From NCBI GenBank assembly GCA_028716525.1, contig JAQUPQ010000028.1, positions 1 to 55,464 of the forward strand: DNA of 55,464 nt, given 5' to 3'. A program made the position numbers and the translations under genes. Positions 2,786-42,215 of the stretch are shown one piece after another. Within the stretch, counting starts at the first letter, position 1, and every line of letters begins with the position of its first letter. The DNA is from Terriglobia bacterium. Its GTDB lineage: Bacteria; Acidobacteriota; Terriglobia; JAIQFV01. The notes under the pieces were generated by a model. That model was not told the origin of the DNA. It did no database searches and worked only from the letters and a program-made list of their open reading frames with translations.

Positions 2786-3178
2786 TCAAAGTTGTTGTAT
2801 CCGGTCAGCGAGTGCATCTTTCACAGCTTGACTCGCTCGCAAAACGCCATGGACTTTCAAGCTCTGGATCGTGTTGAGTGCCAGATCGGACGGGATATCG
2901 CTGGAAAGATACACTCCTCCAACGACGTTAATTTCGAGCCTTTCCCCATTCTCCAAACATTTTTCCAAACTTCGTCGGCTGTATGCAAGTAGACCGATCA
3001 CGGATGCTCTCCGGGCAGCGCTTTTCTCAACGATGTCGCGGTGTACCTCCAACTCCTTTCGGATCGCGGTGCGGATGAAATCTGTCCGATTGGAGTAAAA
3101 GCCTTCCTCAGAGAGCAAGTCCATGCGGCCTAAGTCTACAGCGCTCAGATTTATTGTTATTTTTTCTGTATCTGCCAT
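2786..3178 (-). CDS. CopG-family ribbon-helix-helix transcriptional regulator
   Basis: A 130-residue protein whose first ~50 residues form a ribbon-helix-helix: beta strand KITINLSAVDL, then helices with SNRTDFIRTAIRKEL. The C-terminal ~80 residues have a predicted alpha/beta pattern and could be a dimerisation or ligand-sensing domain, as in longer CopG-type regulators, but none is recognised. It stands alone, convergent with the kinase gene. Immediately upstream of the start (3181-3226) is a nested palindrome with four ACCATC half-sites that overlaps a promoter, which strongly suggests autorepression. No toxin gene lies beside it, so a classical toxin-antitoxin role is not supported. Confidence 0.8.
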   Translation of the reverse strand: MADTEKITINLSAVDLGRMDLLSEEGFYSNRTDFIRTAIRKELEVHRDIVEKSAARRASVIGLLAYSRRSLEKCLENGERLEINVVGGVYLSSDIPSDLALNTIQSLKVHGVLRASQAVKDALADRIQQL

Positions 3179-3180
3179 AA

Positions 3181-3226
3181 ATTACCATCTTTGTACCATC
3201 TATTTAGATGGTGCAGGGATGGTAAT
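3181..3226. promoter_or_regulatory. Nested palindromic operator of the CopG/RHH regulator
   Basis: Four half-sites: ACCATC at 3184-3189 and 3195-3200, and GATGGT at 3207-3212 and 3218-3223. The outer arms ATTACCATC / GATGGTAAT (3181-3189, 3218-3226) are an exact inverted repeat, and the inner arms ACCATCTA / TAGATGGT (3195-3202, 3205-3212) are exact as well. Half-site spacings are 11, 12 and 11 bp, about one helical turn, the geometry expected for adjacent RHH dimers. It abuts the regulator start codon. Confidence 0.75.
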
Positions 3227-3248
3227 AGATATGTAGTCCTCCTGTCAA
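3222..3248 (-). promoter_or_regulatory. Candidate promoter of the CopG regulator
   Basis: On the minus strand a perfect TTGACA -35 (plus 3243-3248) is followed after 15 bp by TATTAC (plus 3222-3227). The -10 overlaps the outermost operator arm, consistent with repression by polymerase exclusion. The 15-bp spacer is short, so the exact -10 is uncertain. Confidence 0.45.
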
Positions 3249-3390
3249 GCAAATTTAAAAGTCGGCGCCCTGTTTCTCTTGGGGACTAGAAAGTCCTGTG
3301 TGTACTGATCCGAAATATGGGCCCGACCTAAGCCGGAGAGGAACACAATTCAATCAACCCAATCGATTCAGATCAGACCCTCTTTTCCAA

Positions 3391-4098
3391 TCATCGCTGC
3401 TTTTGTAACTCGGTGCGGATTTGAGTGAGGATTTCGTAATAACGCCAGGCTGCGGGAGCATTTGGCTCCTGGTGGTGATCGGGTTTGAGCACCAAGTTTC
3501 CGGTTGAAAGAAGAATGCGTTTTACTTCAGGATTCTGGCGCACTTTTTCCCAAGTGGCAGCTACAATCAAGCGGTAATGCTCTCCTGGAACTGCTGGACG
3601 GTATTCCATCTTCTTCCCTTCAAAGGTCACCCACGTAATGCCTATGCGCTTCATATTCTCTTCGGCCAAAGTGCCGGCATTCTTGGCTTCGAAGCTGGTC
3701 ATTTGAGCCACCTGCTCGCGTGTGTATTTCCACTCCAGACCGGGGAATTTGGCGCGAGCGTCATCTTGGTTCTCGGGATACAGCATCATTTGCCAAAAGC
3801 CTTCCAGGCTGGCGTAGTGTCGGCCATGAAAGACAAAGGGTATGGCCGCAAAATTGGAAAGTATGCCCAGCTCATTACGCTTGGAGAGTATGACCTCTCC
3901 GGGTCCGGCTTCCTGCGGCAGGATTTCCCAGTCCGGAGCGCCTTCCTTGGAGACGGGCGTCCACCAATGCGCAGGATAGGGCGAATGTTCTGAAATCGGG
4001 GCTGGGTTGGAAGTCACAGGAGGGGGCGATGAATGGCAAGCGCCCAACGAGATCGTGACGAGGCCGGCGGCGATGTAGAAATAATTCATTTTGGACAT
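3391..4098 (-). CDS. NADAR-domain (YbiA-like) lipoprotein
   Basis: The C-terminal ~170 residues match the NADAR fold (YbiA/RibX-like N-glycosidase family): LSNFAAIPFVFHGRHY, the LEGFWQ helix, an ATWEKVRQNPEVKRILLSTG helix and a terminal WRYYE. Family members hydrolyse N-glycosidic bonds of riboflavin intermediates or ADP-ribose-type adducts. The start was placed at Met 4098 (235 aa) because a typical lipoprotein signal follows: hydrophobic YFYIAAGLVTISLGAC with lipobox LGAC. The frame stays open back to 4254, but that extension translates a tandem repeat. An exported, lipid-anchored NADAR domain is unusual, since known members act in the cytoplasm. It is monocistronic. Domain call good; substrate unknown. 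Confidence 0.75.
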   Translation of the reverse strand: MSKMNYFYIAAGLVTISLGACHSSPPPVTSNPAPISEHSPYPAHWWTPVSKEGAPDWEILPQEAGPGEVILSKRNELGILSNFAAIPFVFHGRHYASLEGFWQMMLYPENQDDARAKFPGLEWKYTREQVAQMTSFEAKNAGTLAEENMKRIGITWVTFEGKKMEYRPAVPGEHYRLIVAATWEKVRQNPEVKRILLSTGNLVLKPDHHQEPNAPAAWRYYEILTQIRTELQKQR

Positions 4099-9494: not shown

Positions 9495-11291
9495 TCACCG
9501 CCGCTGAAATTCCGGTGATCCCATAATCAATCCCGCCACTTCCACCGGCAGCGCCCGTGTCTGTGTATCCTGAGGCGTGTCCGGCGGAATCATTTGTGTG
9601 TTGGTGGCTTCGAGTTTGCCGGCGTCTTTGTTGAGAGCTGCCCGCGTCGTATCGCTCAACTGTCCATTCAGGTACACACGAACCAATTGCGTACGAACCG
9701 CTTCCGCTTGCGAAGGATCGATTCCCTTCAAGAGGTTCAGGAGGTCGACATTCGTGCCGGGAATCTTGTTGGCGGCCAGCGCCATCGCAAAATTCAAGCG
9801 CGTGAGAAGTGTTCCGCTGTTCAACCACTCATCGGCGCGGTCCGGATAGCCGGTGGGCGCCTGGTACTGGAACAACGGCTGGCCCATGCGGGCAATCAGC
9901 TGCAACAGCGCCGGTGAAGCCGTAGTGTCGCCTCCCGAGGTCCGGATGGCGCTGACCACCAGCTCGAACGGCGATTTCACCTTGGCGCGGTAAGCGTCTT
10001 TGGAATTGAATTCCGGCGAATAAAAGATGGTGCGCAACATCTCGCGGATGTCGCCGTCGGTCTTCAGATAGGTTTGCGCCACACGATCCACCAGCGAGGC
10101 CGACGGCGTGTCGGATACGAAGCGGGTCACGAGTTTTTTGGCGATGAAGTGGGCCGTGGAGGGATGATGCACCAGGATGTTGATGACCTCTTCGCCGTCC
10201 TGTTCGCCGTGGTTGTGAATGGTATGGCCCAACACGACCTTGGTTCCGTTGTCATGCAGGCGCGGGTTGAAGAAGAAATCGCCGCCCTGCCGGGGATTTC
10301 GAATGGTCCAACCGGTAAAACAGCGGGCCACTTCGGTGACGTCCTTTTGCGTGTAACCGCCGTCGACCCCCAGGGTGTGGAGTTCCATCAGTTCACGCGC
10401 GTAGTTTTCATTTAATCCACGGCGGGCTAGGTTCGCCTGTTGTTGAGGGCGAGCGGACGGGATCGGCTGCCCGAAGCGGCCAAATCGCCGAACATTTCGC
10501 GGATGCGGGTTGTCGAGGCGCGCGTTGGGATCCACGCTCAACCAATTGTCGAGATAAAACATCATGGCGGGTGAGTGGGCAGTCGCTTCGACCAAATCCT
10601 TGAATTTGCCCAGGGCGTTGGGGCGGATGACGTCACGATCGTATTCCGTGAGCAACCAGCGGTCGGCGCCTTTGCCGGCAAAAATATTGAAATGGTTTTC
10701 CCAGAAGTTCACCATTTCTTCATCGAGCTGCCGTTCGCTGTAGACGGCGCGCAGCACTTCGGATTGTTGTAACTGCCGGATGACTTCCTGAGGATTACGA
10801 AACTGCATGTCGGGATTCTGAGCCGCCAGGGCTTCCATGATTTCCAGGCGCCGTTGTTGAGCTTTCTTCAAGGCCCCGGGAGAGCCCGCGGGCTCCTGGC
10901 CTGCTTCTCCGGCCATCTTGTCTTCCGTTGCCGCCATGGCTTGTTGAATCTGTTTGATGACGTTGGGCGGCGGAAATATGGCCGCCAGTTCGAGAGAACC
11001 CATCGAGAGGGTGTCGAGGCCGGAAAGTTTTTGCGCCACCTGGGAATCGGCAATAGATTCGGGATGCAGTTGTTGTTCGATGAAATTTTTCAGGCCCGTC
11101 TCCTGGACGCGCTCCACATCGCCGGGGCGAATGCCGTAAGTCAGGCGATTGAGAACATGGATGATCTGCTCGTTGCCGCTGAGCGTGTTCGAAGATAAGG
11201 CGGTCTCGGATGCCGCAACGCTTTGAAGGAGCGGCATGAAGGGGTCAAGTACGAGGCCGGCCAAAACAAGTAAACGCAGCAGTGAATTCAT
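9495..11291 (-). CDS. DUF1800 protein, secreted
   Basis: A 598-residue protein with a signal peptide (LLRLLVLAGLVLDPFMPLLQS). DUF1800 hallmarks are present: NRLTYGIRPGDVERV near the start, a conserved ENYARELMELHTLGVDGGYT segment, and EVARCFTGWTI following it. Function in the family is unknown. The start has AAGGTGGA upstream. It is the first gene of a two-gene operon with the DUF1501 gene. A Gln/Ala-rich stretch around residues 120-155 may be a linker or coiled region. Confidence 0.88.
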   Translation of the reverse strand: MNSLLRLLVLAGLVLDPFMPLLQSVAASETALSSNTLSGNEQIIHVLNRLTYGIRPGDVERVQETGLKNFIEQQLHPESIADSQVAQKLSGLDTLSMGSLELAAIFPPPNVIKQIQQAMAATEDKMAGEAGQEPAGSPGALKKAQQRRLEIMEALAAQNPDMQFRNPQEVIRQLQQSEVLRAVYSERQLDEEMVNFWENHFNIFAGKGADRWLLTEYDRDVIRPNALGKFKDLVEATAHSPAMMFYLDNWLSVDPNARLDNPHPRNVRRFGRFGQPIPSARPQQQANLARRGLNENYARELMELHTLGVDGGYTQKDVTEVARCFTGWTIRNPRQGGDFFFNPRLHDNGTKVVLGHTIHNHGEQDGEEVINILVHHPSTAHFIAKKLVTRFVSDTPSASLVDRVAQTYLKTDGDIREMLRTIFYSPEFNSKDAYRAKVKSPFELVVSAIRTSGGDTTASPALLQLIARMGQPLFQYQAPTGYPDRADEWLNSGTLLTRLNFAMALAANKIPGTNVDLLNLLKGIDPSQAEAVRTQLVRVYLNGQLSDTTRAALNKDAGKLEATNTQMIPPDTPQDTQTRALPVEVAGLIMGSPEFQRR

Positions 11292-35859: not shown

Positions 35860-36828
35860 GTGAGGGCGGCATTTTGGAGTCAAGATGAGCAGGACAGAAT
35901 TGACGAGGATGCTTTGAAAGCGCCGCTTCCAATAGTCGACGGAGTCGCCCCCTCTTGCCGCTGGCTTCCGCCGGGTCCCTGGAAAACAGCTCTCGATTTT
36001 CTGATCGAAAGATACCCCGGAGTTGAAGCCGCAACCTGGCTGTCGCGGATGGCCAAAGGGGAGGTGGTGGATGAAACCGGGCTTCGCCTGAACTCAGAAA
36101 CTCCTTACCGAGTTGGAGCCTGCGTTTTTTACTACCGCAACCTCGAATCGGAAATCATCATCCCCTTTGCGGAGACCATCCTTTATCAAGACGAACATCT
36201 TCTGGTTGTTGATAAGCCTCATTTCTTGCCCGTGCTCCCTTCCGGGCGATTCCTTCATGAAACGCTTCTTGTCCGCTTGAGAAAAAAGGGGGAGCCCGCG
36301 CCGCTGGTCCCCATCCATCGCATCGACCGGGAAACGGCAGGGGTCGTCCTGTTTTCTCGCAATCCGGAAACCCGAAGTCAATACGCAACGCTTTTTCAGG
36401 ATCGGAAAGTGAAGAAGGTGTACGAAAGCCTTGCGCCCACGCATCCAGGGCTCAGTTTTCCCGTGACGCGACACAGTCGAATGGTGGCCGGAGAACCTTT
36501 TTTTCGAATGAAAGAAGTGGAAGGAAAACCGAACTCCGAGACCACCATTGCGGTGCTCCAGGTATTGAGCGGCACGACTCGCTTTCAGATCATTCCCGTT
36601 ACCGGCAGAAAACACCAAATCCGCCTGCATATGTCGGCGTTGGGGATCCCGATTCTTAATGACACACTTTACCCTGAGATGAGATCCTTCGAAGACGACG
36701 ATTTTTCCCATCCTCTCCAACTGTTGGCGAAGTCCGTGTCCTTTCAGGATCCGTTGACCGGGCGAGAACGCTATTTCGAGAGCAGTAGAAAGCTAGAGTG
36801 TGGCGAGGTGACGCTAAACGCTGTTTGA
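35860..36828 (+). CDS. RluA-family pseudouridine synthase
   Basis: A 322-residue RNA-modifying enzyme. The N-terminal ~90 residues include an S4-like segment (ALDFLIERYPGVEAATWLSRM). Catalytic core: ILYQDEHLLVVDKPHFLPV, active-site Asp in HRIDRETAGVVLFS, VKKVYESLAP, and the C-terminal ITGRKHQIRLHM-type motif (VTGRKHQIRLHMSALGIPI). It isomerises specific uridines in rRNA or tRNA; the target cannot be told from sequence. The start is a GTG at 35860 with a weak upstream site, so the N-terminus is uncertain. It may be horizontally mobile: it sits at the border of the repeat-rich accessory region. Confidence 0.88.
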   Translation: MRAAFWSQDEQDRIDEDALKAPLPIVDGVAPSCRWLPPGPWKTALDFLIERYPGVEAATWLSRMAKGEVVDETGLRLNSETPYRVGACVFYYRNLESEIIIPFAETILYQDEHLLVVDKPHFLPVLPSGRFLHETLLVRLRKKGEPAPLVPIHRIDRETAGVVLFSRNPETRSQYATLFQDRKVKKVYESLAPTHPGLSFPVTRHSRMVAGEPFFRMKEVEGKPNSETTIAVLQVLSGTTRFQIIPVTGRKHQIRLHMSALGIPILNDTLYPEMRSFEDDDFSHPLQLLAKSVSFQDPLTGRERYFESSRKLECGEVTLNAV

Positions 36829-36895
36829 TGCAGCCATGCGCCCTGCTGAAGAAGGTGTCGGGTATCAGGTGTCAGGGGCCAGGTGTCAGGCCGAA

Positions 36896-36946
36896 GGTCC
36901 GCCAGGGTTCGCTTGCGTCCTCCAGATTTTTGGGGGATTGGCGGAT
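36896..36946 (+). repeat. ~50-bp dispersed element, copy in plus orientation
   Basis: GGTCCGCC...TCGCTTGCGTC...GGGGGATTGGCGGAT. Related copies are at 8006-8055 (plus, more diverged) and 13322-13372 (minus). Confidence 0.65.
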
Positions 36947-36989
36947 ATCGGGTGTCCGGTTAAATTCTTACTGATCATCAAGTCCGGCT

Positions 36990-37026
36990 GGGTGACGCAT
37001 ACATCGCGCTTTTTGCGATGTGTGCG
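36990..37026 (+). repeat. Island repeat, half copy (left hairpin only)
   Basis: GGGTGACGCATACATCGC then a GCTTTTT loop and GCGATGTGTGCG. This is the left end of the element found complete at 37957, 39805 and 40356, with one stem mismatch. Confidence 0.6.
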
Positions 37027-37530
37027 ACGGGTCTCACCTGACCACTTCCAAATTTCAGTGAGCGATGGAGTCTTCAGCAAATACGTCCCTGAAAGGGACA
37101 TCTTCAATAGCCTAGGGTTGCGTGCTTTGCAACCCTAGGTAGGGAATTGCATCGCGGTTCTAACCCTGAAGGGGTTATCTAAGGCACCAATTGTGAAAAC
37201 TCTGTCGTCCCCGTGATTCACAATCCCAGATCCCTTCTAATGTATGAGGCAATACCTTCCCGGCCTTGACGCGGTTTTTCGGGCGTCGTATAGTCCGGCA
37301 TGTATTTCGGCCCCGCATTGATGTTCCGACGCCACGTCGGATGGATGGCTTTATGATCCCGAATGTTTCCAAACCATCAAAGTTTCCACTTCGACAAAAC
37401 GGCACACGTCGATACAGAAGGTGATTTCATGTTTGAGCTGACATGCGAGGAGATCATGAGGGTATCACAATCTGTGACATCCTCATCCACTACGGAGTTG
37501 GCTGGAGTGGACGTTAGGCCGAGGTAGCAA

Positions 37531-37848
37531 ATGGCCGAGGAACAAGATCACGATCCCTTTGAGGACTGGCGGGAATGGTTGGATCACCGTTACGACCCGG
37601 GTTACTTTTTGGGGGGTCGGATCCATCCCATGTTTCGAGTGAAGCGACCCAGTCCGTTCGGTTGGATATTTCTGGTATTTGGCGCATTTTCTCTGGCGTC
37701 CAGTATTGTAGCCCTCAGAGAGATTTCGTATCTCGCTATCCCATCGGTTGCGATGAGTTTTCTTTGGATTCTTGCTGGCTCGGCTATGCTTACGGAGGAA
37801 AAGCGCCGCAGTCGCGATGAAACAGGACATCATGGACAAAGCGAATAG
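37531..37848 (+). CDS. Small two-helix membrane protein, unknown
   Basis: A 105-residue protein starting at ATG 37531 with GAGG nine bases upstream. The acidic N-terminus (AEEQDHDPFEDWREWLDHRY) is followed by two hydrophobic helices (about 43-62 and 68-88) and a charged tail. No family is recognised. It lies between two copies of the island repeat and reads in the same direction as the other island genes. Confidence 0.55.
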   Translation: MAEEQDHDPFEDWREWLDHRYDPGYFLGGRIHPMFRVKRPSPFGWIFLVFGAFSLASSIVALREISYLAIPSVAMSFLWILAGSAMLTEEKRRSRDETGHHGQSE

Positions 37849-37956
37849 AGGCTGTAGTGTTTGACGTCAGTTGCATTCTGTCGAGTGTCCAGATCTCGCC
37901 ATTTCCTGTTCCCGCGGACGAGCGCTACTGTTGGGCTGATTAGAGCTCTGTAGGCT

Positions 37957-38151
37957 GGGTGGCGCAGACATCGTGTTCTGTACGATGTCTGCGATGAAAG
38001 GCCATGAGTCTCTTTAAGTGGAAAATATGGTTCGTGAAAAGAAGCGTTGTTTGGGCAGAGCATATTTGGTTTTGAAGGTTTCACATCATCAATGCAAACC
38101 CAAAGATTTTCTATCGCAGACATCTCGCAAGTCTCGATGTCTGCGCCACCC
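37957..38151 (+). repeat. Island repeat, copy A (195 bp, hairpin-ended)
   Basis: Ends are a perfect 17-bp inverted repeat: GGGTGGCGCAGACATCG (37957-37973) and its complement (38135-38151). Each end also folds on itself: left hairpin 37963-37993 with a perfect 12-bp stem, right hairpin 38115-38145 with a 10-bp stem. The ~120 bp between them is conserved with copies B and C. Confidence 0.85.
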
Positions 38152-38508
38152 GTCCGACGTCCTCCGTCGGATGGATGGCTTTATGATTGCCCACGTTCCC
38201 CGTTCGGCAGGCGCTTTCTCTCAAGAAAAGCCCGCAGCTTTCTCATGTCCTCAATCGAGGACCGGCTGGCGTTCGCAGCCCTGTAGACGGGATTTGAACA
38301 CCCTCAATGAAGTTGTGTTATGCCGATTCCCATAAGATGTCGTGAAGAACTGCCGGACAGGAAGCAAGCAATTGAAAGCAAAGGTGCAAATATGCCTTCG
38401 GCAAGACATTCAAAAGCGTATTATACGGACAGGGAACGAGAACTCCGCGTCTTACGCGGATCAGTCTAATTGCTGTTGGGCAAAGAACAACAAAAGAAAG
38501 AGAAACAC
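38152..38508. other. Leader region of the wHTH/HEPN gene pair
   Basis: Begins with the CGTCGGATGGATGGCTTTATGAT repeat (38165-38187). On the minus strand ~30 codons after it read as possible coding remnant (IEDMRKLRAFLERKRLPNG). The last 200 bp are AT-rich and likely hold the promoter of the downstream genes; no clear hexamers were fixed. Confidence 0.4.
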
Positions 38509-39048
38509 ATGCCAAAGGCTACGGTAACACTCGCGAGTGGCGCGGTAGTTAATATCGAGGGGGCGACAGCTGAGGTTAAGGACCTCTTGGCGTACTACGG
38601 TGGAGCCACTTCTGACAAACAAGAAAAGCAGAAGGCCGCTCCTGCCCCGAGGTCAGCGGGAAAGCCTACTGAAAAGCCGCAGACTGACGATCTGTCAATT
38701 AGTGAGATCGTGAAGCACGTCAAAGACTGCGACGAGGCGGACGACATTGAGTCGCGAATCCTAGACACGACGAGTCAGGTCAATCGCATTCTTCTACCGC
38801 TTTTCGTTGTGCAGAAGTACATGGGCGGCTCCCACGGTTTGACAACTGGTGAGATCAGCGCCGTCACAAAGGATCTCGGCATTCCCATTCACGTGGCCAA
38901 TGTGTCAAACGCCCTTAAGGGGAGCGCGGCCCGCTACGTTATCGGAGACAAGGTCCGCCGGAAGGGACAGCCTGTTCGGTATTCGCTCTCTCGTCGCGGA
39001 CTCAAGTACATCGAAAACGTGATCAAGGGCAAGAGCGATGGCGAGTAG
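38509..39048 (+). CDS. wHTH-like protein, first gene of a coupled pair, unknown function
   Basis: A 179-residue protein not matched to a named family. Residues 1-32 look like a small beta-beta-alpha unit (TVTLASGAVVNIEGATAEVK); 35-60 is a Lys/Pro/Ala linker; ~62-92 is an acidic helix. Residues ~93-175 have the pattern of a winged helix-turn-helix: LLPLFVVQKY, GLTTGEISAVTKDLGI, HVANVSNALKG, then a wing VRRKGQPVRYSLSRRGLKYI. DNA binding is therefore likely. It ends in ATGGCGAGTAG, overlapping the next gene's start by 11 bases. Flanked by island repeats A and B. Possibly the regulator or antitoxin of a two-gene module (inference). Confidence 0.65.
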   Translation: MPKATVTLASGAVVNIEGATAEVKDLLAYYGGATSDKQEKQKAAPAPRSAGKPTEKPQTDDLSISEIVKHVKDCDEADDIESRILDTTSQVNRILLPLFVVQKYMGGSHGLTTGEISAVTKDLGIPIHVANVSNALKGSAARYVIGDKVRRKGQPVRYSLSRRGLKYIENVIKGKSDGE

Positions 39049-39772
39049 GAAGCAATTCGCAAAGGGTCTTGCACGGCTTGGGCTTTCGCACGTTGACCGA
39101 GCAATAGCATTGCTTTGGTATTATCGCGAAACCCAACTGTTTGATGAACGTTCCCCATCGGAACTCGCCGCCGACTTGCACGAAGAGGACTTCCCAAAGC
39201 CAAATGTCACACGTCTCGGTCAAGAGCTGAGACAAAGTCGATACACCATTGGCGGCAAACGAAAGGGAACTCTCCAGCTTGATGCACGCAAGGTCGACGA
39301 ACTGAACACGAAGTACCTACTCCTGCTGGGCCTCCCAGACGTTCAGGTGAGGGGGGAATACTTGCCTCCTGAATGGACGAACGGAACGCGAAAGTATCTG
39401 GAACAACTCGTTCGTCAGCTCAATGGATGCTACGAGGCAGGCTTCTACGATGCTTGTGCAACGCTATGCAGACGATTGATGGAGTCCTTGATAATCGAGT
39501 GCTACGTAGCAGCTGGGCGACCGCACGAAATCCAGAAGAACGGAGTATTCGTGATGTTGGATGCCCTCGTTTCTACTATCACCACAGATAAGTCAATTCT
39601 GGTTGGCAGAAATACTCCTCCGACGATGCGCGACGTCAAGACTTTGGGCGATACTGCTGCGCATGATCGGACGTATATCACACCCAAACTCGATCTTGAC
39701 GACCTCCGATTGCGTTACAGGCACATGATTCAGGAACTACTGGGGAAAGCCGGGATCAAGCCAAAGCAGTGA
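39038..39772 (+). CDS. wHTH plus HEPN/DUF4145-like protein, second gene of a coupled pair
   Basis: A 244-residue protein. Residues 1-95 again resemble a winged helix domain (HVDRAIALLWYYRETQLFDE, SPSELAADLH, NVTRLGQELRQ). Residues ~115-235 form an all-helical domain with the DUF4145/HEPN-clan look: EAGFYDACATLCRRLMESLI, then MRDVKTLGDTAAHDRTYI with His209, and a terminal DLDDLRLRYRHMIQELL helix. HEPN domains are often RNases in toxin-antitoxin and defence systems, but the strict Rx4-6H motif is not clearly met here. Its start overlaps the upstream stop, so the two proteins are made together. Inferred: an undescribed regulator/effector pair. Confidence 0.65.
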   Translation: MASRKQFAKGLARLGLSHVDRAIALLWYYRETQLFDERSPSELAADLHEEDFPKPNVTRLGQELRQSRYTIGGKRKGTLQLDARKVDELNTKYLLLLGLPDVQVRGEYLPPEWTNGTRKYLEQLVRQLNGCYEAGFYDACATLCRRLMESLIIECYVAAGRPHEIQKNGVFVMLDALVSTITTDKSILVGRNTPPTMRDVKTLGDTAAHDRTYITPKLDLDDLRLRYRHMIQELLGKAGIKPKQ

Positions 39773-39804
39773 ACTGCCCAACCAGACGGTCGAGCGAACC
39801 GGTG

Positions 39805-39983
39805 GGGTGGCGCAGACATCGTGTTCTGTACGATGTCTGCGCGGAAAGGCCTGAATTTCTTTTACTCGACAATATAGCTGGTGAAACAAAGTTGTTTTGA
39901 GCAGAGCTTGTCTGCTTCGCTTTAGAAGTTGTCAATGCAAACTCGAACAATCTCTATCGCCCCGATACATCGGGGCGCCACCC
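39805..39983 (+). repeat. Island repeat, copy B (179 bp, swapped right hairpin)
   Basis: The left hairpin is identical to copy A. The right hairpin is replaced by the palindrome CGCCCCGATACATCGGGGCG (39959-39978), yet the terminal GCGCCACCC is kept. It follows the wHTH/HEPN pair by 32 bp in the same orientation as copies A and C. Confidence 0.8.
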
Positions 39984-40016
39984 ACCGAAGTTTTACAAGG
40001 GGAAAGGAGAATACCG

Positions 40017-40304
40017 ATGCCCAATTATGGTTTTGAAGCGACAAGAGGTTCTAACGGTCAGCCAATAATGGGAGTTACAATTAGACATAATCCTGCTGTA
40101 TGCAATGCTAATGGACTTGTTTGTACAGCACCAGTTTTAACAACCAACACACGACCTTCAGCTCTGGCAACAATGAATGTTCCAGGAGAGATAGCTCATT
40201 ATTTTACTGCGTCATACCCCGGACAGCCGAACGTAGTTGAAAATCAGTATACACTTGGAATGAACCAGGCAAGGTATGTTGAGTTTGTTTTTCCGGGATT
40301 ATAG
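40017..40304 (+). CDS. 95-aa orphan protein between two island repeats
   Basis: Starts at ATG 40017 with a strong GGGGAAAGGAGA ribosome binding site. It is rich in Asn/Thr/Pro (GVTIRHNPAVCNANGLVC, TTNTRPSALATMN) with two Cys close together, and no transmembrane segment. Base use is clearly more AT-rich than the surrounding genes, suggesting recent acquisition. It fills exactly the space between copies B and C. No family recognised. Confidence 0.6.
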   Translation: MPNYGFEATRGSNGQPIMGVTIRHNPAVCNANGLVCTAPVLTTNTRPSALATMNVPGEIAHYFTASYPGQPNVVENQYTLGMNQARYVEFVFPGL

Positions 40305-40355
40305 TGCGATATAAGAGGGTGAGACTGGATCAGATCTCTCCGAGAAAGGGAGGCG

Positions 40356-40552
40356 GGGTGCATACAACGTGTTCTGTACGATGTCTGCGATGAAAGACCC
40401 TGAATTTCTTTTAGTCGAGAATATGATTTGTGGAAAGAAGCGTCGCTTGGGCAAAGCTTGTCTGTTTGATTTTGAAGGGTGACACGTCGCGAACGAATGC
40501 CCGAACATAATGTATCGGAGACATCTCGCACGACTCGATGTCTGCCCCACCC
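40356..40552 (+). repeat. Island repeat, copy C (197 bp)
   Basis: Left end GGGTGCATACAACGTGTTCTGTACGATGTCTGCG with a decayed left stem; the right hairpin GAGACATC...GATGTCTGCCCCACCC is retained. The interior aligns with A and B. Same orientation. Confidence 0.8.
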
Positions 40553-40580
40553 GTCCCAAATCTAGGAGGCAATGCCAAGG

Positions 40581-40710
40581 TTTGGAGTGCGGCGACTATG
40601 GCGCCGCTTTGGATTTTCGCATAGAAAGATGTCACGGCCGAAACAGCGGGGTTACTAAGCTCATCCAAAGCGCCGCCTCAGGCGGCGCACTCCAAGTGTC
40701 TGCGCCACCC
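40581..40710. repeat. TTTGGAGTGCGGCG palindromic element plus island-repeat right end
   Basis: TTTGGAGTGCGGCGAC...GCGCCGCTTTGGAT faces ATCCAAAGCGCCGCC...GGCGGCGCACTCCAA (to 40695). It is followed directly by TGTCTGCGCCACCC (40697-40710), the right terminus of the island repeat, so the element appears inserted into a further island-repeat copy. Related element at 43511-43640. Confidence 0.65.
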
Positions 40711-40762
40711 GTCATTCCGTGAGGCGTCGAATCAATCCTTTTCTTGCTTGAGGAGGCTGTGT

Positions 40763-41812
40763 GTGCGGCGTATTGTCGCGATCTTTTTAATGATGTTGTT
40801 CTGTGGTTCGATGCTAAGTGCGGTTTCTTTGCCGAAACCAGAGCGAGACCCCGTTCCACCCACCGAAGCACAAATCCTTTTGATTAAGGAGGGGGTGCGA
40901 TTTCACGATCAAGGCGACTTTGAGAAGGCCATTGCCAATTATCAGGAAGCCCTCAAGATCAACCCCGATGTCGTAGAAGCCCTTTATGAGCTCTCTTTTT
41001 CTCAGTTTGCGAAAGGGGATTACTCTGAGTCGCTGGCGACAGCCTTAAAAGGGGCTGAATATCGATCCAAGCTGATCGATCAATTATATCTGCAGATAGG
41101 GAATTGTTTGGACAGTCTTGGAAGGACGAAGGAAGCGATTGATGTTTATAAGAAAGCCATGAAAGGCAGTCCGAGTGATTCGCTCCTCTATTTCAACCTT
41201 GCCCTTGCTCAGCAAAACCTGGCGAAAACGAAGGACGCCGAGAAGAGCTTTGAGCGAGCGCTGGTGCTCAATCCCAACCATCCTGGGTCGCACCGGTCAT
41301 TGGGTGGTTTGTATCTGAAGTCCGACCGCAAGATCTCAGCAATGTTGGCCTATCTTCGATTTCTGGTTCTGGAACCGCGATCCTCTCGGGCGGATCAGTT
41401 GTTGCCGACTGTAGAAGATCTGCTGGGGGCCGGTGTCACTCAAACAGGTGAGAATCAGATCGTAATTCCTATCGCCATTGGCAGCGGTAAGAACAAGCTA
41501 TCAGGGATTGATGACATGGGACTTTCGCTCTCGATCGCCCGTGGGGCAGTGTTCATAAAGAAAGAGGGAAAGGAGACGCCAACCGGAATTCAAGCCATCG
41601 CTCAGGAACTCTCCACATTTTTTGCCATAATGGGAGAAAGCTCGGGTGCTAGGAACAAGAGCTTCGTGTCAACTTACTACGTCCCCTACTTCGTCGAGCT
41701 CGGAAAGAAGAACATGGTTGAGCCGTTCTGTTATTTTATTTTCCAAAACAAAAAGGACGCGGACATTTCGCAGTGGCTGAATAGTCACTCGCAAGAAGTT
41801 CAAAGCTTTTAA
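40763..41812 (+). CDS. Secreted TPR-repeat protein
   Basis: About 349 residues. The GTG start at 40763 is set by AGGAGG six bases upstream. A signal peptide (IVAIFLMMLFCGSMLSAVS) is followed by four or more TPR units: GVRFHDQGDFEKAIANYQEALKINP, LYLQIGNCLDSLGRTKEAIDVYKKAM, LAKTKDAEKSFERALVLNPNHP. The C-terminal ~130 residues (from about 220) are a different, unrecognised domain. It probably acts as an envelope scaffold. It lies in the accessory island, on the same strand as its neighbours. Confidence 0.8.
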   Translation: MRRIVAIFLMMLFCGSMLSAVSLPKPERDPVPPTEAQILLIKEGVRFHDQGDFEKAIANYQEALKINPDVVEALYELSFSQFAKGDYSESLATALKGAEYRSKLIDQLYLQIGNCLDSLGRTKEAIDVYKKAMKGSPSDSLLYFNLALAQQNLAKTKDAEKSFERALVLNPNHPGSHRSLGGLYLKSDRKISAMLAYLRFLVLEPRSSRADQLLPTVEDLLGAGVTQTGENQIVIPIAIGSGKNKLSGIDDMGLSLSIARGAVFIKKEGKETPTGIQAIAQELSTFFAIMGESSGARNKSFVSTYYVPYFVELGKKNMVEPFCYFIFQNKKDADISQWLNSHSQEVQSF

Positions 41813-41888
41813 GAATGGTCTAGAAATTATACTTGGCCGAAGGACTAGCAGCTTTAATGGAATCTCCATTGGGTTGGGTGATGCATCC

Positions 41889-42215
41889 ATGAGCTTTGAC
41901 CGAATTGTGCTTGTGTGGGTTTTATGGGTGTTTGGAACGCTGCTGTTGTTGTTTTGCGGTTTGATGTCGATGGCACCGCAGGTCTCCTTGTGGTTTTTTT
42001 TGATATTTCTGTTACTTGCCACGCTTCTGCTCGCGCTGACGATTTGGTTGGGGCAGTCTCAATGGCAAAGCACTGGCGGACAGAACGGCACGGGCAGGGT
42101 GGTACGCGAACGCTCTCGATCTGTGCGCGTCATAGTGGCCCTCGCCGGATTGGAGTTAATAGTGTTTATAGCGTGGTTTTGCCGGTTGCTCGATTTTTCC
42201 TGGCTTGGACTTTGA
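41889..42215 (+). CDS. Small membrane protein, unknown
   Basis: A 108-residue frame starting at ATG 41889 with three hydrophobic segments (about 4-26, 31-52 and 83-103) and a basic loop between the second and third. No family is recognised and no strong ribosome binding site is visible. It is preceded by GGTTGGGTGATGCATCC, which weakly recalls the island-repeat left end, and followed by another half copy. Confidence 0.4.
   Translation: MSFDRIVLVWVLWVFGTLLLLFCGLMSMAPQVSLWFFLIFLLLATLLLALTIWLGQSQWQSTGGQNGTGRVVRERSRSVRVIVALAGLELIVFIAWFCRLLDFSWLGL

Follow-up and report, generated by a model that had tools for sequence, protein, structure and literature searches.

A transferred winged-helix/HEPN gene pair from a Terriglobia bacterium as a candidate mobile conflict module with exchangeable partners

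The window analysed here, a 55,464-nt stretch of contig JAQUPQ010000028.1 from a Terriglobia bacterium, carries two overlapping genes, A and B, that were transferred as one unit and whose products are predicted to combine winged helices with an HEPN domain. The reading favoured here, to which a probability of about 0.6 is given, is that A-B constitutes a mobile two-gene conflict module of the abortive-infection or toxin-antitoxin type, in which A would restrain or steer the HEPN effector B. Both the toxin-antitoxin and the defence roles are suggested by the genomic context of the family. The original prediction had proposed two genes overlapping by 11 bases, and the ORFs agree with this layout:

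38509..39048, + strand, gene A, predicted winged-helix protein of 179 aa
39038..39772, + strand, gene B, predicted winged helix plus DUF4145-type HEPN protein of 244 aa
39038..39048, + strand, A/B overlap of 11 nt, from the ORF coordinates

The mechanical ORF start of gene A is a TTG at 38470, upstream of 38509. Overlaps were also observed in relatives of the pair, spanning 11 nt in locus L003, 8 nt in L014, and 4 nt in both L004 and L005. Both genes are under purifying selection, with synonymous change dominating in the comparison with L003 (dN/dS of 0.077/0.56 for gene A and 0.042/0.55 for gene B).

It had also been proposed that the pair is a mobile cassette bracketed by repeats, and both parts of this claim were borne out. 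Both genes, again with an 11-nt overlap, are present on a contig from a Lac Pavin MAG that bears the title Proteobacteria (B at 91% and A at 85%), and nothing in the rest of this contig aligns to the window outside 38474-39772. In the contig-to-window alignment, the shared segment extends from 35 nt before A through the stop codon of B, and it is flanked in the window by repeats:

38474..39772, + strand, transferred cassette, the sole stretch of the window common to the Lac Pavin contig (86.2% over 1299 bp)
37957..38156, no strand assigned, repeat copy 1, about 200 bp with inverted ends (repeat comparison)
39805..39960, no strand assigned, repeat copy 2, partial, 76% (repeat comparison)
40357..40556, no strand assigned, repeat copy 3, 79% (repeat comparison)

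A-B is therefore regarded as one unit, since the 86% DNA identity is confined to precisely 38474-39772, purifying selection acts on both genes, and the pair is enclosed by repeats at both sites. The three near-full repeat copies lie within 2.6 kb, no others being found in the 4.2-Mb assembly, and the 13-mer at the repeat tip occurs six times in the window against 0.10 expected. Between copies 2 and 3 there is a 95-aa ORF (40017-40304) with no Pfam family, which resembles a second small cassette. In L003, the pair is bounded by perfect 26-nt inverted repeats (1679-1704 and 3083-3108) that differ from those of the window, and the 26-nt repeats at 607-632 and 1679-1704 flank a Y1 transposase gene. 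It is plausible that the cassette was moved by an element of the REP/Y1 type. An alternative in which A and B are simply genes of the host that dispersed repeats happen to surround would fit the lack of a mobility gene in the window and the GC content, which is 0.535 in the pair and 0.544 in the window. However, such an explanation is very improbable given the sharp homology boundaries against another lineage, the restriction of the repeat copies to the window locus, and a patchy distribution, in which a full-length B was found in only two genomes besides the window's own among the 396 searched in its phylum.

In the phylum of the Lac Pavin MAG, a profile search recovered B relatives in 10 of 395 genomes. 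An alignment-based search of viral contigs returned four B loci (L023-L025 and L035); a scan of viral contigs with a single B sequence gave no match, and phage and plasmid records gave none for the B proteins tried. The window's own genome contains a second, more distant B relative, L002 (hhalign probability 82.6, E 9.6e-6). On this contig (C34), three tandem short winged-helix-like genes precede a winged-helix/HEPN gene that contains LGDTAAHN, with a serine recombinase as neighbour, so that the genome of the window holds a second, larger arrangement akin to the pair.

The linkage of the two genes was found to be general in the family, and homologues occurring only as unlinked single genes, which would have spoken against the original prediction, were not what was observed. 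In all 16 loci in which B is complete and the upstream DNA readable, B is preceded by a small gene on the same strand, the end of which falls anywhere from 35 nt within B to 17 nt ahead of it. This count excludes L020, at a contig start, and L022, a fragment close to the end of its contig, because they offer no complete B with readable upstream DNA, as well as the weak partial matches L006 and L007. Generic DUF4145 genes from related genomes differ from B in this respect, since an overlapping upstream gene was present in none of the ten that were counted from a set of 12 loci (L055 and L060 had no readable ORF), and a non-overlapping ORF lay 12-57 nt upstream in five of the ten.

The upstream genes themselves belong to at least three groups, and no profile link was found between them. 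The first, of the window kind, comprises those of the window, L003, L014, L004, L005, and L023, in which the very divergent L004 gene is placed by its position and its beta-rich N-terminus. The second corresponds to DUF5343, ends in a strand-helix tail, and is found in L015-L019, L024, and L035; the L015 gene scores 27.1 bits against the 27.0-bit Pfam cut-off, PADLOC PDC-M34A, listed as a defence candidate, matches the upstream genes of L015 and L035, and the other members were assigned by alignment A6. The third is a short helix plus winged-helix-like gene, recognized by eye in L021 and L025 and, as three tandem copies, in L002. In L014, another winged-helix-like gene at 2799-3419 (-) precedes A and B, adjoining a phage integrase (L026), which suggests that three-gene versions exist. 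Homology of the window A to the DUF5343 genes and to those of the third group was considered and rejected, with hhalign probabilities of 0.2 and 1.8, respectively, in low-depth tests. Because A shows no profile similarity to either group, its "swapping" rests on gene position and on the shared B family.

Partner swapping was also observed from the side of DUF5343. A PDC-M34A search in the phylum of the Lac Pavin MAG matched 9 of 297 genomes, and the next gene was HEPN-like at all nine matches. These partners comprised four members of the B family, two HEPN_Swt1 and two Hypoth_Ymh proteins (Pfam), and that of L042, recognized by its RNECAH motif only. PDC-M34B belongs to the Swt1-type HEPN proteins and accompanies DUF5343 in L039, and no profile relation was found between this Swt1-like partner and B. 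Since HEPN genes of the Swt1 and Ymh types also occur as partners of DUF5343, winged-helix and HEPN genes are recombined combinatorially. In the window's phylum, 16 of 212 genomes matched PDC-M34A. Four of the five strong matches (E <1e-20) had a partner with an HEPN motif (L062, L063, L064, and L066), and L065 had no intact one. None of the 11 weak matches was followed by an HEPN-like gene, as far as the sequence was readable; eight of them share another helical partner, L074 is ambiguous, and L075 and L077 show none. These eight (L067-L073 and L076) present a conserved operon in which the first gene encodes a DUF5343-like winged helix that ends in a strand-helix tail and the second a helical partner starting with SEKNFLE, which is not HEPN by eye. 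As the weak matches have no HEPN partner, the association of DUF5343 with HEPN is strong only among close DUF5343 relatives; partner swapping is real within this group and should not be generalized to the whole family.

Neighbourhood conservation in defence islands had been named as a check of the original prediction, and conflict or defence genes do accompany the family at many loci, according to Pfam/PHROG-supported calls. Phage integrases are neighbours in L024, L025, L026, and L035, a terminase large subunit was found at L023, a single-strand annealing protein at L032, a serine recombinase at L002, and a Y1 transposase at L012/L003. Restriction genes comprise HsdM, HsdS, and HsdR, which flank the pair on either side in L027, an NgoMIV restriction enzyme with a methylase in L028, and an Eco57I-type methylase in L024, and ParE is found at L030. 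Altogether, a mobility, phage, or restriction gene is placed near 10 of the 16 loci, or 11 when ParE is counted; no such neighbour was seen by eye in the window, L010 (L004), L011 (L005), L029 (L017), and L031 (L019). These mobile and restriction neighbourhoods are suggestive of a role in conflict. In L030, the winged-helix/HEPN pair is immediately preceded by the gene of a second HEPN-like protein (9722-10429, - strand; RNQLYH by eye, no Pfam family), which has a DUF5655 protein and the ParE toxin gene as neighbours. A defence role is also weakly backed by sequence matches in PADLOC, in which the Ymh partner of L044 matches PD-Lambda-3_B (3.5e-18) and the B protein of L024 weakly matches part of PD-Lambda-5_A (E 2.8e-4). 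The PD-Lambda-5 system of E. coli has been validated, and PMC9519451 presents it as a compacted RM+Abi prophage system.

The domain architecture was derived from AlphaFold2 models, built with family alignments for B (mean pLDDT 89.5) and with a family alignment of five sequences for A (pLDDT 71.7):

38515..38598, + strand, N-terminal beta-beta-alpha piece of A, aa 3-30 (predicted secondary structure, modest confidence)
38599..38694, + strand, low-confidence linker of A, aa 31-62 (pLDDT <50 over aa 32-60)
38776..39027, + strand, predicted C-terminal winged helix of A, about aa 90-173 (predicted structure and structure matches)
39047..39328, + strand, predicted winged helix of B, about aa 4-97 (predicted structure and structure matches)
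39392..39748, + strand, predicted all-helical HEPN domain of B, aa 119-237 (predicted structure and structure matches)

These models bear out the folds that had been read from the sequence, namely a winged helix in A and a winged helix followed by an all-helical DUF4145/HEPN-like domain in B, and the outcome in which neither fold would be predicted did not occur. The helical domain of B matched 2hsb best (Z 14.3, rmsd 2.3, 119 aa), followed by 1ufb, 2q00, and HepT, and by its predicted fold B belongs to the HEPN superfamily. At the sequence level, Pfam DUF4145 (PF13643) reached E 0.0044 and 17.5 bits in the window B, under the 23.1-bit cut-off, which was exceeded by its relatives in L014, L015, and L021 (25.7, 25.5, and 27.8 bits). 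Beyond this, only noise was obtained for B in Pfam, NCBIfam, PADLOC, and PHROGs. A sequence search of the PDB gave only chance-level matches, and a viral structure library gave no match at E <=0.001. For gene A, nothing rose above noise in Pfam, NCBIfam, PADLOC, and PHROGs. Among the VIA structure matches shown for the predicted A model, about aa 72-179 were aligned with Z 8-9.5, and most of these matches were winged-helix DNA binders, such as PadR, AspA, and MarR.

The part of the original prediction that was not supported concerns B as an active RNase. The LGDTAAHDR sequence, which had drawn attention to this domain, corresponds to aa 203-211 of B and overlaps the conserved motif of the family:

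39638..39664, + strand, KTLGDTAAH motif, K201-H209 (alignment and motif count)

Canonical HEPN RNases carry an Rx4-6H motif, as stated in the HEPN census (PMC3710099). The window B presents instead K-x7-H with G at -5. Among the 16 B proteins, Rx4-6H is found at the conserved His only in that of L021 and is missing in the other 15, so that RNase activity is left unsupported by the motif. Counted from this His, G is found at -5 in all 16 proteins, D/N at -4 in 15, and K/R at -8 in 15, and the G and the A-H of the G-[D/N]-x-x-A-H face are kept in 16/16. R145, R146, E149, C140, N129, Y120, and R228 are invariant in the 14 aligned B proteins, and K201, D205, and H209, spaced by four residues, would sit on one helix face. 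As R at -8 is also common among generic DUF4145 proteins (6/10), B conforms to the pattern of these proteins. R-x4-H is retained in the Swt1, Ymh, and L042 partners that are linked to DUF5343.

This departure from the canonical motif is the ground of the rival that we rank first, in which the HEPN domain of B would be non-catalytic and the pair would be a winged-helix regulator or a DNA/RNA-binding scaffold controlling its carrier element. Besides the absence of Rx4-6H in all but one of the B proteins, the presence of two winged helices in the pair, and of four by eye in the L002 operon, accords with such a function, and MtlR, an HEPN protein without the motif, offers a comparison; according to the HEPN census, some motif-less HEPN domains, MtlR being named, probably bind RNA without cutting it (PMC3710099). 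However, the kept G-[D/N]-x-x-A-H face together with R145, R146, and E149 exceeds what a bare scaffold would need, and the restriction and mobile neighbours also weigh against this explanation, which we consider unlikely. Other noncanonical HEPN enzymes are active. The HEPN protein of the type IX retron also lacks the canonical motif, and the sequence-distant H64 and R122 are needed for defence, according to PMC13405049. Since this noncanonical HEPN works, the missing motif lowers, but does not abolish, the chance that B cuts RNA.

Several known systems resemble the window pair in part. Its identity with PDC-M34 was rejected, as no PADLOC family matched the window proteins at E 1 and no PDC-M34B match was obtained in G000. 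Both have a winged-helix gene followed by an overlapping HEPN gene, and genes of the PDC-M34 A family are also found ahead of short proteins of the B family, but the HEPN subfamily is different and the beta-alpha piece of the window A is N-terminal rather than C-terminal. A type IX retron was likewise rejected, for there is no reverse transcriptase: the corresponding motif had no plausible match in ORFs of at least 150 aa in the 22 sources scanned, scanned ORFs at window-family loci included. Rfam gave no match at 36000-42000. With this retron (retron-Kva2), the pair shares adjacent winged-helix and HEPN genes, the latter without the canonical motif, and a winged-helix protein with a noncanonical HEPN forms there a real anti-phage tRNase system (PMC13405049). 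B also shares the HEPN fold and the K/R-xx-G-[DN]-xx-A-H pattern with DUF4145 HEPN proteins, including BxaP, which has a HEAT-like part where B has its winged helix; BxaP, with an N-terminal DUF4145, protects against T4 (PMC10799925). As in HEPN-MNT, there are two genes with an HEPN member, and the B model matches HepT 6m6w (Z 9.8), but the partner A is a predicted winged helix with no Pfam family and not a nucleotidyltransferase. In the Csm6/Csx1 group, a winged helix is joined to HEPN, and the predicted HEPN domain of B matches Csm6 6tug (Z 9.4); unlike these proteins, B consists of a winged helix and HEPN only, leaving no room for a CARF domain. Two-gene modules also swap partners in the promiscuous antitoxin networks of Panacea/NetFlax (PMC10440598), but no Panacea domain is claimed here and the effectors are all HEPN. 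The literature search, whose scope left most subscription journals outside, found no description of the A-B pair and no mention of DUF5343, nor of PADLOC together with PDC-M34; in the extracts available, PMC12839542, PMC13092281, and PMC9519451 do not describe a pair of the window type.

The pair is also similar to type II toxin-antitoxin systems in being a small overlapping two-gene operon with the regulator first. In a classical system of this type, A would be an autoregulating antitoxin and B the toxin, kept mainly for maintenance and not for defence, to which the small upstream gene with a predicted DNA-binding fold, the overlapping toxin-like HEPN gene, and the mobility of the pair would conform. 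This reading is nevertheless improbable, considering that B has its own predicted winged helix and that L014 and L002 carry extra winged-helix-like genes, unlike a minimal pair.

In the preferred reading of A-B as a conflict module, A would be made first and B in step with it through translational coupling, and the two proteins would form a complex. The winged helices may bind DNA, either their own promoter, invader DNA, or both, and the complex would keep the HEPN dimer formed by B from acting. B would then be released or re-oriented upon infection or when A is lost, and the freed HEPN domain would attack RNA, leading to growth arrest and, possibly, to protection against phage. A broader proposal, put forward tentatively and with more doubt than confidence, is that winged-helix/HEPN immune modules free of reverse transcriptase form a large and combinatorial class, in which unrelated winged-helix sensors have been recombined with at least four HEPN families, and that the window HEPN would cut RNA via a displaced site (K201/D205/H209 plus R145/R146) upon the sensing of invader nucleic acid by the winged helices.

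In many immune systems, HEPN domains act as the executioners, and their infection sensors or restraints are usually unknown. In the type IX retron, the HEPN dimer has recently been reported to be kept inactive in a complex with the reverse transcriptase, the winged-helix protein, and msDNA, and a reverse-transcriptase-free version would comprise a simpler system for testing this logic. Such a version would also serve to test for RNase activity in HEPN proteins that lack the classical motif. If the partner-swapping winged-helix/HEPN format is true, it would suggest winged-helix proteins as a general family of sensors or inhibitors for HEPN effectors.
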